Shown here piece by piece: positions 39 to 45,597 of a stretch of DNA of 45,597 nt. Within the stretch, counting starts at the first letter, position 1, and the number at the start of each line of letters is the position of its first letter. A model generated the notes under the pieces. It was given only the letters and a program-made list of their open reading frames with translations, did not search any database and was not told where the DNA came from. Source of the stretch: Clostridia bacterium (lineage in GTDB: Bacteria; Bacillota; Clostridia; Oscillospirales; CAG-272). The translations under genes and the position numbers were made by a program. The stretch spans positions 1-45,597 of the forward strand of contig JAFULC010000042.1 of the NCBI GenBank assembly GCA_017483305.1, given 5' to 3'.

Positions 39-76
39 CCGTAATTATGATGCAAACGAGTGCATCATAATTACGG
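39..76. repeat. Perfect 16-bp hairpin abutting tRNA-Ser
   Basis: Arms 39-54 and 61-76 are exact reverse complements around a 6-nt loop (aacgag). The right arm ends with the first two G of the tRNA-Ser acceptor stem, so this hairpin and the mature tRNA 5' end compete for the same bases. There is no T-tract, so it is not a standard terminator. It could be a leader structure for processing, or the edge of another repeat copy. Confidence 0.7.
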
Positions 77-164
77 AGAGATATCGAAGTGGTCATAACG
101 GGGCTGACTCGAAATCAGTTTGTGCCAAAAGCACACGAGGGTTCGAATCCCTCTCTCTCCGCCA
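75..164 (+). tRNA. tRNA-Ser (anticodon CGA), CCA encoded
   Basis: The acceptor stem GGAGAGA (75-81) pairs with TCTCTCC (154-160), followed by discriminator G161 and an encoded CCA. The anticodon loop CTCGAAA gives anticodon CGA, which reads UCG. A long variable arm (TTTGTGCCAAAAGCACACGA) marks it as a class II serine tRNA, and the T-arm is GAGGGTTCGAATCCCTC with a normal 7-nt loop. It is followed directly by a terminator and then by partial copies of its own 3' end. Confidence 0.95.
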
Positions 165-170
165 TAAAAA

Positions 171-202
171 CAAAGAGGAGCTTCTGCTCCTCTTTGTTTT
201 TA
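171..202 (+). terminator. Intrinsic terminator of tRNA-Ser
   Basis: The stem caaagaggagc (171-181) / gctcctctttg (186-196) has a TTCT loop and is followed by TTTTTA. It begins 6 nt after the tRNA CCA. The same right arm and T-tract recur at about 311-330 in the downstream array. Confidence 0.9.
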
Positions 203-383
203 TACCGTAGAGCGAGGGTCGCTCGAGACCGATCACCAAAGCCGCAGGCTTTGTGTATGGGTTCAGAATCCCGTCCTCATCTGTAGGATAATTGCCATTG
301 GGAGAGCTTTTGCTCCTCTTTGTTTTTATACCGTCGAGAAAGGGTCGCTCGAAGTCGATCTCCAAAGCGATAGCTTTGGAAAA

Positions 384-409
384 GGTTCAGAATCCCTCTC
401 TCTCCGCCA
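384..409 (+). pseudogene. tRNA-Ser 3'-end fragment with extra A in T-loop
   Basis: It matches tRNA-Ser 140-164 base for base through CCA, except for one inserted A (GGTTC-A-GAATCC), which makes an 8-nt T-loop. There is no D-arm or anticodon arm upstream, so it is not a functional tRNA. Confidence 0.85.
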
Positions 410-440: not shown

Positions 441-599
441 GTTGGCGAAGAGAGAGGGTACAGAGAAATCTCACTCCAAATTCGCCTGCGAATTTGTGAA
501 AAGGTTCAGAATCCCGTCCTCATCTGTAGGATAATTGCCATTGGGAGAGTTTTGCTCCGCAAAACGTCGCCCGTGCCACCGGCACCCTTGATAAATAAT

Positions 600-12463: not shown

Positions 12464-12490
12464 TAGGCATTATGCCCCTTAATAACCGAA

Positions 12491-12527
12491 AAATCGGCAG
12501 AGATGTTGCTTTCTCTGCCGATTTCTG
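12491..12527 (+). terminator. Terminator after AI-2E gene
   Basis: The stem aaatcggcagaga (12491-12503) / tctctgccgattt (12512-12524). The T-tract is short (TTTCTG). Confidence 0.7.
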
Positions 12528-12673
12528 TTACAATGTAGCTAACAGAAATCCTCTCCCCCTCGGGAGAGTTGGAGAGGATTGCCCGCGGATCAAATCCTGC
12601 GGATTTGAGGGAGTTCGAGTCGGTTGAGTTAACGAAAAATGAACCCACCCGATGTATCGGGTGGGTTCATTTT

Positions 12674-12699
12674 TGGTGACCCGCCGGAGACTCTGAACT
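12674..12699 (-). pseudogene. tRNA-Lys 3'-end fragment, distal copy
   Basis: It matches the last 25 nt of tRNA-Lys through CCA, with one inserted A in the T-loop (AGTTC-A-GAGTC). No other tRNA arms are present. Confidence 0.85.
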
Positions 12700-12838
12700 T
12701 TCGCATGCGGCAAAATCTCACCAAATCCCCCGTCCTCCCGTCCGCCCGCGGATCAAATCCTACGGATTTGAGGGAGTTCGAGTCAGTGGGGCTATTCAAA
12801 AACAAAACACACCCAATTTCTTGGGTGTGTTCTGTTTT

Positions 12839-12864
12839 TGGTGACCCGCCGGAGACTCTGAACT
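12839..12864 (-). pseudogene. tRNA-Lys 3'-end fragment, proximal copy
   Basis: The same 26 nt as the copy 165 bp away, including the extra A in the T-loop. It is followed on the minus strand by a terminator whose stem sequence differs from that of the intact tRNA. Confidence 0.85.
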
Positions 12865-12962
12865 TTCGCGTGCGGCAAAATCTCACCCAATCCCCCGTCC
12901 TCTTATCCGCCCGCGGATCAAATCCTGCGGATTTGAGGGAGTTCGAGTCGGTTGAGTTAACG

Positions 12963-13001
12963 AAAAATGAACCCACCCGATGCTTCGGGTGGGTTCATTT
13001 T
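12963..13001 (-). terminator. Terminator of tRNA-Lys
   Basis: A palindromic stem gaacccacccga / tcgggtgggttc flanked by A and T runs, directly after the tRNA CCA on the minus strand. Confidence 0.9.
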
Positions 13002-13077
13002 TGGTGACCCGCCGGAGACTCGAACTCCGGACCCCATGATTAAAAGTCATGTGCTCTACCATCTGAGCTAGCGGGTC
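13002..13077 (-). tRNA. tRNA-Lys (anticodon TTT), CCA encoded
   Basis: On the minus strand, the acceptor GACCCGC (13071-13077) pairs with GCGGGTC (13006-13012), then discriminator A and CCA (13002-13004). The D-arm is GCTCAGATGGTAGAGC, the anticodon loop CTTTTAA (TTT), and the T-arm GGAGTTCGAGTCTCC with a normal loop. It is the only intact tRNA of this array. Confidence 0.95.
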
Positions 13078-45233: not shown

Positions 45234-45477
45234 TATACTGCCTTTCCCCTATGAATTTCTTTGAATCGAATACCCATACCATAAGGTTCTTCCCATCAAA
45301 GATAAATAGGTATGTATCCGAGCCGCCGTAGGCAGACCTATGTGAAAGGTGGTCTACCGTTTTACCTTTGGCTCTTAACACACCTATTTGTCCTCGACAC
45401 CCCGGTGTGACCGAACATTGTTCGGCATGGGAAGTCATCAAGCGTCCGATTACGAGTCGGCTCCATAGGAATCTCAC
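45220..45477 (-). CDS. Possible small element protein, overlaps next gene
   Basis: An open frame of 85 codons from GTG 45477, or 53 codons from GTG 45381 (preceded by GAGGA). Only the C-terminal part looks protein-like: KTVDHLSHRSAYGGSDTYLF and FDGKNLMVWVFDSKKF, a beta-rich stretch. Its stop lies 11 nt inside the following gene, as expected for coupled element genes. The first 30 codons run through hairpin-rich sequence and are doubtful. Alternatively the whole region is a non-coding leader. Confidence 0.4.
   Translation of the reverse strand: MRFLWSRLVIGRLMTSHAEQCSVTPGCRGQIGVLRAKGKTVDHLSHRSAYGGSDTYLFIFDGKNLMVWVFDSKKFIGERQYNEHF
45362..45466 (-). CDS. Possible 34-aa leader peptide
   Basis: An ATG at 45464-45466 with an excellent GGGGGAGGTGA ribosome site opens a 34-codon frame (starts MEPTRNRTLDDFPCRTMFGH) that ends in TAA. 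It lies in a different frame from the 85-codon frame and overlaps it. It may be a leader peptide that couples translation to the next frame, or the 5' part of a frameshifted gene. Confidence 0.35.
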   Translation of the reverse strand: MEPTRNRTLDDFPCRTMFGHTGVSRTNRCVKSQR

Positions 45478-45597
45478 CTCCCCCGGGTACTCCGCAGGCA
45501 GCGCCTTTCGGCTACTGAAGTATCATTATCCCTCACGTTTGTCATCGCCCTCTGTCGGTAGTAATCCGACTTCACTCAAAGTATCGTTTGATCGCTC
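45382..45597 (-). other. Hairpin-rich leader at window edge
   Basis: On the minus strand there are the hairpins GTCGGATTACTACCGAC, CCGACTCGTAATCGG, GCCGAACAATGTTCGG and CACACCGGGGTGT within about 200 nt. One loop reads CTCGTAA, like a tRNA-Thr(CGT) anticodon arm, but no acceptor or T-arm is present. No complete gene is seen in the last 120 bp. Confidence 0.4.

Follow-up and report, generated by a model that had tools for sequence, protein, structure and literature searches.

The window, a 45,597-nucleotide stretch of DNA, carries two tRNA genes that are each followed by an array of repeat units. On the minus strand, a tRNA-Lys(ttt) gene (13002..13077; ARAGORN; Rfam RF00005, 68.8 bits) hosts the first array. 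Downstream of its own terminator (terminator 1, 12963..13001, read from the sequence), the core of unit 1 (12854..12949) comprises an antisense arm, a hairpin P2 (12918..12936, from the stem and fold analysis), a stem P3 with a 31-nt loop (12867..12915, where 12915-12907 pairs with 12875-12867 apart from one G.A mismatch), and the start of a copy of the tRNA 3' end, hereafter called the echo. The long-form covariance model R2 scores this core at 80.6 bits (E 1e-15; alignment A1) and that of unit 2 (12689..12784) at 75.4 bits, both being seeds of R2. Echo 1 (12839..12864), which reads AGTTC+A+GAGTC and continues through the acceptor 3' strand to CCA, and echo 2 (12674..12699) were located in the sequence and by the echo search, and are followed by terminators 2 (12798..12838) and 3 (12635..12673), respectively. 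The array ends at about 12581 with a truncated third unit (12581..12621; antisense arm, P2, and the start of P3), to which a weak R2 match corresponds (12549-12621, 25.6 bits). As the original prediction stated, AGTTCAGAGTC stands in both extra tRNA-Lys 3' ends in place of the AGTTCGAGTC of the gene (GTTC at 12863 and 12698), and the unit bodies are flanked by GACTCGAACT and AGTTCAGAGTC. Against the stated repeat length of 163-165 bp, the distance is 162 nt from the gene to echo 1 and 165 nt from echo 1 to echo 2, and Tandem Repeats Finder gives a period of 165 with 2.7 copies (12581-13026). Each full unit also contains a terminator, which that description lacked. At the distal end of the array, positions 12487-12572 form a terminator-like inverted repeat (ATCGGCAGAGA...TCTCTGCCGAT), for which (query about 88-173) the 16 listed matches lie in this genome and its congeners, in the manner of a dispersed repeat.

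The second array lies on the plus strand behind a tRNA-Ser(cga) gene (75..164; ARAGORN) and its terminator 1 (165..202, read from the sequence), and its units are of a shorter form. Sequence and stem analysis placed the P2 hairpins of units 1, 2, and 3 at 237..253, 361..380, and 477..496. The T-loops of echoes 1 and 3, both GTTCAGAATC, were found by pattern search at 261..270 and 504..513, and echo 2 runs from GTTCAGAATC to GCCA (385..409; sequence and echo search). The extra A that was claimed to be common to the Lys and Ser loci is indeed present, since GTTCAGAATC stands at 261, 385, and 504 with an A behind GTTC. The body layout claimed for both loci is shared insofar as the two arrays belong to one family with common ends and hairpins, but P3 is present in the Lys units and absent from the Ser units. 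Within the window, ARAGORN and RF00005 call tRNA-Lys and tRNA-Ser only and none of the echoes, whose T-loops have one base too many for a cloverleaf with a 7-nt T-loop. Elsewhere in the window, a pemK RNA motif (RF02913, 67.6 bits) occupies 45463-45529 on the minus strand.

A full unit of this family, which we call a tRNA-tail cassette, stands behind a tRNA gene and its terminator and consists of an antisense arm, P2, in the long form also P3 with a loop of about 30 nt, an echo, and a terminator. First units begin 48-59 nt downstream of the tRNA gene. In the echo, the host tRNA gene is copied from a point slightly ahead of the T-loop (about position 52/53) as far as the 3' end, often together with the terminator, and the copied T-loop is usually 1-2 bases longer. 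In the long form, GTTC of the echo can pair with GAAC of the antisense arm and close a three-way junction, P1-P2-P3; the closing helix is formed by GAAC-N with N-GTTC of the echo, the antisense arm is restricted to the T-arm, and the three helices are joined by 2-nt linkers in the folded Thr and Gln units. The short form, represented by Ser in the window, has one hairpin and no P3, and its antisense arm spans the acceptor strand. Such an acceptor-strand antisense arm exceeded the 95th percentile of swapped controls in 10 of 16 short-form first units, and coverage of the acceptor strand was found in 3 of 33 long-form units. The P3 loop measures 29-32 nt in 79 of the 85 model-aligned units (85 of 107 matches, leaving out opposite-strand twins, duplicates, and cut-off matches) and in 28 of 36 units found without the model. 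A guide-like role of the 30-nt loop was rejected because its complementarity to its own tRNA, terminator, or echo was not above that of swapped controls (35 units).

Comparison of all tRNA downstream regions of the genome, the check proposed at the outset, bore out the expectation that the unit bodies form a family with common ends and hairpins behind many tRNA genes; the shared junction at the Lys and Ser loci is therefore not a coincidence. By eye, 14 of the 23 usable tails have the same order, namely CCA, terminator, hairpin, and a new T-loop with a copy of the acceptor strand. The stretch after the terminator in these 14 tails is often antisense to the 3' end of the same tRNA, and some copies continue with CCA and another terminator. 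We then scored echoes against swapped-tRNA controls in five genomes of the family, using 98 of 119 tRNAs (those with another tRNA directly downstream or with little downstream sequence were omitted). An echo of the tail's own tRNA exceeded the 99th percentile of the controls in 35 of the 98 tails, where about one was expected. By genome, the counts were 12/23 in this genome (including tRNA-Thr(ggt), followed by a complete but degenerate copy of the tRNA, and an incomplete Met echo), 5/18, 7/19, 11/19, and 0/19, the last in G048 of the same genus. Antisense echoes of the whole segment passed the same test in only 6 of 98 tails. The sequence GTTCAGANTC occurs 31 times in the genome, compared with 6 for its reversed control; by our own count, 12 occurrences lie within such arrays, 18 lie outside, and one was not inspected. 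With own-tRNA echoes and this excess, the array pattern is not a chance product, as had been argued from the identity at two loci. The pattern of A-form echoes did not extend across the phylum: GGTTCAGANTCCCG was found in 12 of 397 other genomes, about as often as its reversed control (10, own count), and none of the 12 inspected among its 13 phylum hits (all but L222) adjoins a tRNA, the nearest being 912 nt away.

Cassettes are not confined to ordinary tRNA genes, since two units stand behind the tmRNA gene in G002. Several tRNA genes of G054 have no encoded CCA; their echoes also have none and continue into the genomic trailer, so the source of the copy is DNA or the primary transcript, and retro-copying of a mature tRNA is ruled out. 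The echo analysis kept 86 of 120 hits, omitting those inside ARAGORN tRNAs, those with a missing T-loop, and locus L218. Loci from pattern searches favour GTTCAGA, and the tRNA-anchored subset is less biased, though it includes Lys loci that were located through their similarity to the window. Among the 57 tRNA-anchored units, the T-loop is one base longer in 36, two bases longer in 6, without an insertion in 13, and scored as shorter in 2; at least one unit with an insertion is present at 28 of 37 tRNA-anchored loci. The inserted bases differ between units (A, T, GT, C, G, and others), and model-found units read AGAATC, AGATTC, AGAGTC, TGAATC, TGAGTC, GTAAGT, and others after GTTC. What units with an insertion have in common is a T-loop other than 7 nt. 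The antisense arm pairs with the extra base in some species, giving a perfect helix (GATTCTGAAC / GTTCAGAATC), and has no partner for it in others; of nine clear cases, six arms agree with the tRNA form and three with the echo form, the remaining cases being too weak to judge. A fixed bulged A as a selected feature was rejected because antisense arms differ in how they accommodate the extra base, some pairing with it, some leaving it bulged, and some mismatching it. The claim of a defined junction made by one mechanism is thus supported in part: the family recurs behind many tRNA genes, but a single recombination junction that always yields the same A is not supported, since the bases vary and 13 of 57 units have none.

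The units follow the tRNA that hosts them, down to variants peculiar to one species, and one mobile unit with fixed ends would therefore not explain them. For example, an acceptor variant of tRNA-Lys in G059 recurs in the antisense arm, as does a T-loop variant in G065, and the Thr units of G065 match a divergent T-arm in both the antisense arm and the echo. Within one genome, similar bodies can follow different tRNAs with ends that match each local tRNA, as in G007 (Glu, Glu, Met, and Val) and G054 (Ser, Trp, and Glu). The number of full units differs widely among ten orthologous tRNA-Lys loci, including that of the window: 4, 3 (short form), 2, 1, and 1 at five loci, none but a remnant at a sixth, and none at the other four. 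These four empty loci, together with the echo-free state of 19 tails in G048, speak against an essential function.

Orthologous units provided evidence on the fold. In Lys orthologs from four species, P2 and P3 show double changes, with 7 of 28 pairs altered on both sides. None of 500 shuffles attained their covariation score or percentage of paired positions; for the count of doubly changed pairs, 90 of 500 did, and for that of pair types, 476 of 500. RNAalifold recovers the three-way junction from these orthologs unaided, and G054 paralogs behind five different tRNA genes agree with the fold. The Thr(cgt) orthologs of five species are all exactly 96 nt long and align without gaps; up to 20 of 29 loop positions differ, yet 97% of stem cells are paired, and none of 500 shuffles attained their covariation score (for pair types, 56 of 500 did). 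Single-sequence folding gave the junction in four of the five Thr units (z -2.7 to -6.1), the exception being that of G067, and four hand-picked units (L257 Gln, L260 Glu, L273 Glu, and L264) gave z -5.5 to -10.5. Shuffled sequences fold as well as the two Lys units of this genome (z -0.4 and -0.7), whose minimum-energy structure differs from the junction; z was -2.1, -3.0, and -0.5 for the three Ser units. In a wide alignment of 101 distinct rows, which was fitted to the structure and includes opposite-strand twins, double changes occur at every P2 and P3 pair. Collectively, the stems covary, and the length of the P3 loop is kept while its sequence changes.

The long-form model matched 9 of 12 genomes of the genus, 70 of 295 genomes and 23 of 71 genera of the family, and three genomes of other families in a sample of the order (n=197); in a phylum sample (n=398), it matched this genome only. 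Whenever more than 40 genomes were searched, the filters were stricter, at the cost of weak matches, and with a model trained on this family, absence elsewhere means absence of this long form only. In two of the three genomes outside the family, tRNA-Arg is followed by a unit that has an extra T, and the retrieved stretch of the third has no tRNA. At 42 of the 51 model-found places with a fetched locus (22/28 and 20/23; L270, L276, and own-genome loci omitted), a tRNA or tmRNA gene lies close upstream on the same strand; several of these places share one array, and 12 are in sequences from which the model was built. Without the model seeds, the count is 32 of 39 (14/18 and 18/21). We read three of the nine places without an upstream tRNA as lying beside tRNA 3' fragments (L264, L277, and L292) and two as preceded by an echo near a contig end (L265 and L295); L248, L251, L271, and L286 have no clear tRNA. 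At two further loci, L226 and L235, the arrays are joined to tRNA 3' fragments and the stretch lacks an intact tRNA, as would result if genomic islands had come between gene and array. At L234 (G063:C31), two near-identical copies of a terminator plus unit lie about 1.36 kb apart, and the second follows a tRNA-like 3' end, as if the copies flanked a small island.

A fold of the tRNA-sense strand predicts more G.T than A.C pairs on that strand. The counts on that strand were 10:0 in a first set and 19:4 and 37:16 (p 0.005) in model alignments. For P2 and P3 alone, they were 23 to 11 (p 0.06) in the model alignment and 7 to 3 (p 0.34; G.T 0.7%) with a symmetric stem finder on a larger set; the terminator stems of tRNA genes in the examined loci gave 36 to 8 (G.T 2.4%). 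In the Thr units, folding of the opposite strand is almost equally good (z -2.4 to -4.3). With counts so mixed, the strand signal is weak, and the scarcity of G.T pairs fits a DNA-level process at least as well as an RNA fold.

The nearest known layout is that of RtT (rtT; Rfam RF00391) at E. coli tyrT-tyrV, where tandem units also follow a tRNA gene; in the cassettes, too, tandem units that include a copy of the tRNA 3' end lie behind the gene. In the RtT unit (L068; fold z -3.1), the copy of the tRNA 3' end provides the 3' strand of the closing helix and an antisense arm the 5' strand, and there are internal hairpins as in the cassettes. RtT differs in that it lacks the GTTC+A echo, its copy begins AATCC, its hairpins are other ones, and, unlike in cassettes, no terminator is seen between units. 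The E. coli product is annotated as a small RNA, RttR, and rtT reportedly acts as RNA within read-through transcripts of the tRNA gene; Egan and Landy are said to have described the 178-bp tyrT repeats. The best RF00391 match over this genome (17.8 bits, E 0.7; cut-off 45) lies more than 12 kb from the nearest tRNA on its contig, and the Lys and Ser regions have no RF00391 match at E<=1. The remaining Rfam matches of these two regions at E<=1 fall below the family cut-offs and are mostly to miRNA, plastid, and sRNA families. A known RNA family was rejected because gathering-score matches in the arrays are to tRNA only.

Two groups of DNA elements also bear a likeness to the cassettes. Integron attC sites have imperfect inverted ends, an unpaired base, variable terminal stems, and cassette-like arrays, as these units do. 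The attC consensus has an R' core GTTRRRY and an R'' core RYYYAAC; the Lys and Ser units of the window end in GTTCAGA, with C at position 4, and do not match GTTRRRY, and cassette ends, unlike attC, derive from the local tRNA. REP and IS200-type elements are small genomic hairpins with genome-specific stem sequences, like cassettes, but the latter stand mainly behind tRNA genes, in a fixed orientation, and carry tRNA sequence. In Methanopyrus kandleri, a palindrome of about 10 bp lies behind tRNA genes, a tRNA-tail motif like the cassettes but single and short, for which the relevant passages describe neither a tRNA copy nor repeated units (PMC5217627). A literature search by titles and abstract openings returned nothing on these tRNA-tail repeats or RtT.

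On balance, we favour, at about even confidence, the reading that the Lys array is an instance of a tRNA-tail cassette family with a conserved architecture and a fold selected on the tRNA-sense strand. The cassettes are most likely a structure-conserved element that depends on the T-arm and acceptor end of tRNA-like genes and acts as folded RNA in rare read-through tails. Selection would operate on the tRNA-sense strand in its folded state, most probably at the RNA level where transcription of the tRNA gene runs on into the tail. Arrays may grow and shrink through recombination or slippage between the identical repeats of tRNA 3' end and terminator, and local duplication or conversion could keep each echo in step with its tRNA. 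By spoiling the 7-nt T-loop, the extra bases may mark the echo as non-tRNA, so that the tail would fold with its own antisense arm and escape handling as a tRNA. Judged from the sequence, the putative terminator ahead of the units counts against read-through.

The main rival to the RNA reading is a hairpin DNA element, a rather unlikely alternative, in which a non-autonomous P2-P3 body is recognised as single-stranded or cruciform DNA and spreads between tRNA genes; the local T-arm would become the closing helix through foldback or microhomology-primed copying and the extra bases would be scars. It accommodates the very few G.T pairs in P2 and P3 despite wide sequence turnover, the similar bodies with locally matched ends in G007 and G054, the differences in presence by locus among congeners, and the alternation of sense and antisense copies around two hairpins, as foldback copying would leave. 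However, the identity of the echo extends beyond GTTC or TTC by 1-2 nt on the upstream side (Val GATTC, Thr TGTTC), which places the insertion away from the edge of the copy; the Thr, Val, and Lys units also look vertically inherited within the genus. A selfish version, which we hold to be decidedly improbable, has a self-folding element behind tRNA and tmRNA genes that rebuilds itself around the local tRNA. Foldback at the terminator hairpin would produce the antisense arm, and a new sense 3' end would come from copying at the T-shaped P2-P3 hairpin, as in rolling-hairpin telomeres, with the 1-2 extra T-loop bases as the scar.

It is improbable that the units are a functionless by-product, arising by tandem duplication of the tRNA 3' end with its terminator and with palindromes perfected by template-switch repair. 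The near-identical tandem copies at one locus, the decayed partial units at array ends, and a sister species without echoes would suit such an origin; against it stand the 29-32 nt of the P3 loop in 79 of 85 units despite sequence turnover, the unit length of exactly 96 nt in five species, and recurrence in 23 of 71 genera. A further view, related to the integrase check proposed with the original prediction, takes the junctions as att remnants made by an integrase of tRNA-targeting elements; it draws on the location at tRNA 3' ends and on arrays that adjoin displaced tRNA 3' fragments (L226 and L235). Cores of att sites should be identical to their target, but the echoes carry varied indels, 42 of the 57 tRNA-anchored ones having 1-2 extra T-loop bases, and the bodies show compensatory stem changes and not fixed arm sites, which makes this view very improbable. 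We assign a negligible probability to an artefact of metagenome-assembled genomes. Several tRNA loci do lie at contig ends, and at least one related genome is a metagenome assembly, but the same units occur in several separate assemblies, with model matches in 23 genera, and this recurrence refutes it. An assembly error as the source of the extra A in the window fails likewise, since the same Lys units recur in three other assemblies of the genus (G061, G062, and G067).

A layout of the RtT type, known from one E. coli locus, thus recurs in unrelated form behind many tRNA genes and a tmRNA gene, with a conserved fold and model matches in 23 of the 71 sampled genera of one bacterial family. The link to the T-arm and acceptor end and not to decoding, tmRNA included, narrows the possible partners, which may be RNase P, CCA and T-arm enzymes, EF-Tu, or enzymes that act on folded DNA. 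Species of one genus with and without cassettes offer natural comparisons. Some tails of this genome show further arrangements. At L029, L032, L019, and L003, other small hairpin inserts separate the T-loop of the echo from the acceptor strand, and CGAGTTTTGCTCCGCAAAACGTCG is common to L019 and L029. At L001 (G000:C11:20-246), tRNA-Thr(ggt) is followed by its degenerate copy with a hairpin inserted mid-copy and the same terminator. At a contig start, G000:C21:1-250 (L046) holds an 89-bp tandem array of short units (GTTCAGAATCTTGTCACCTCGACC) whose tRNA gene lies off the contig.
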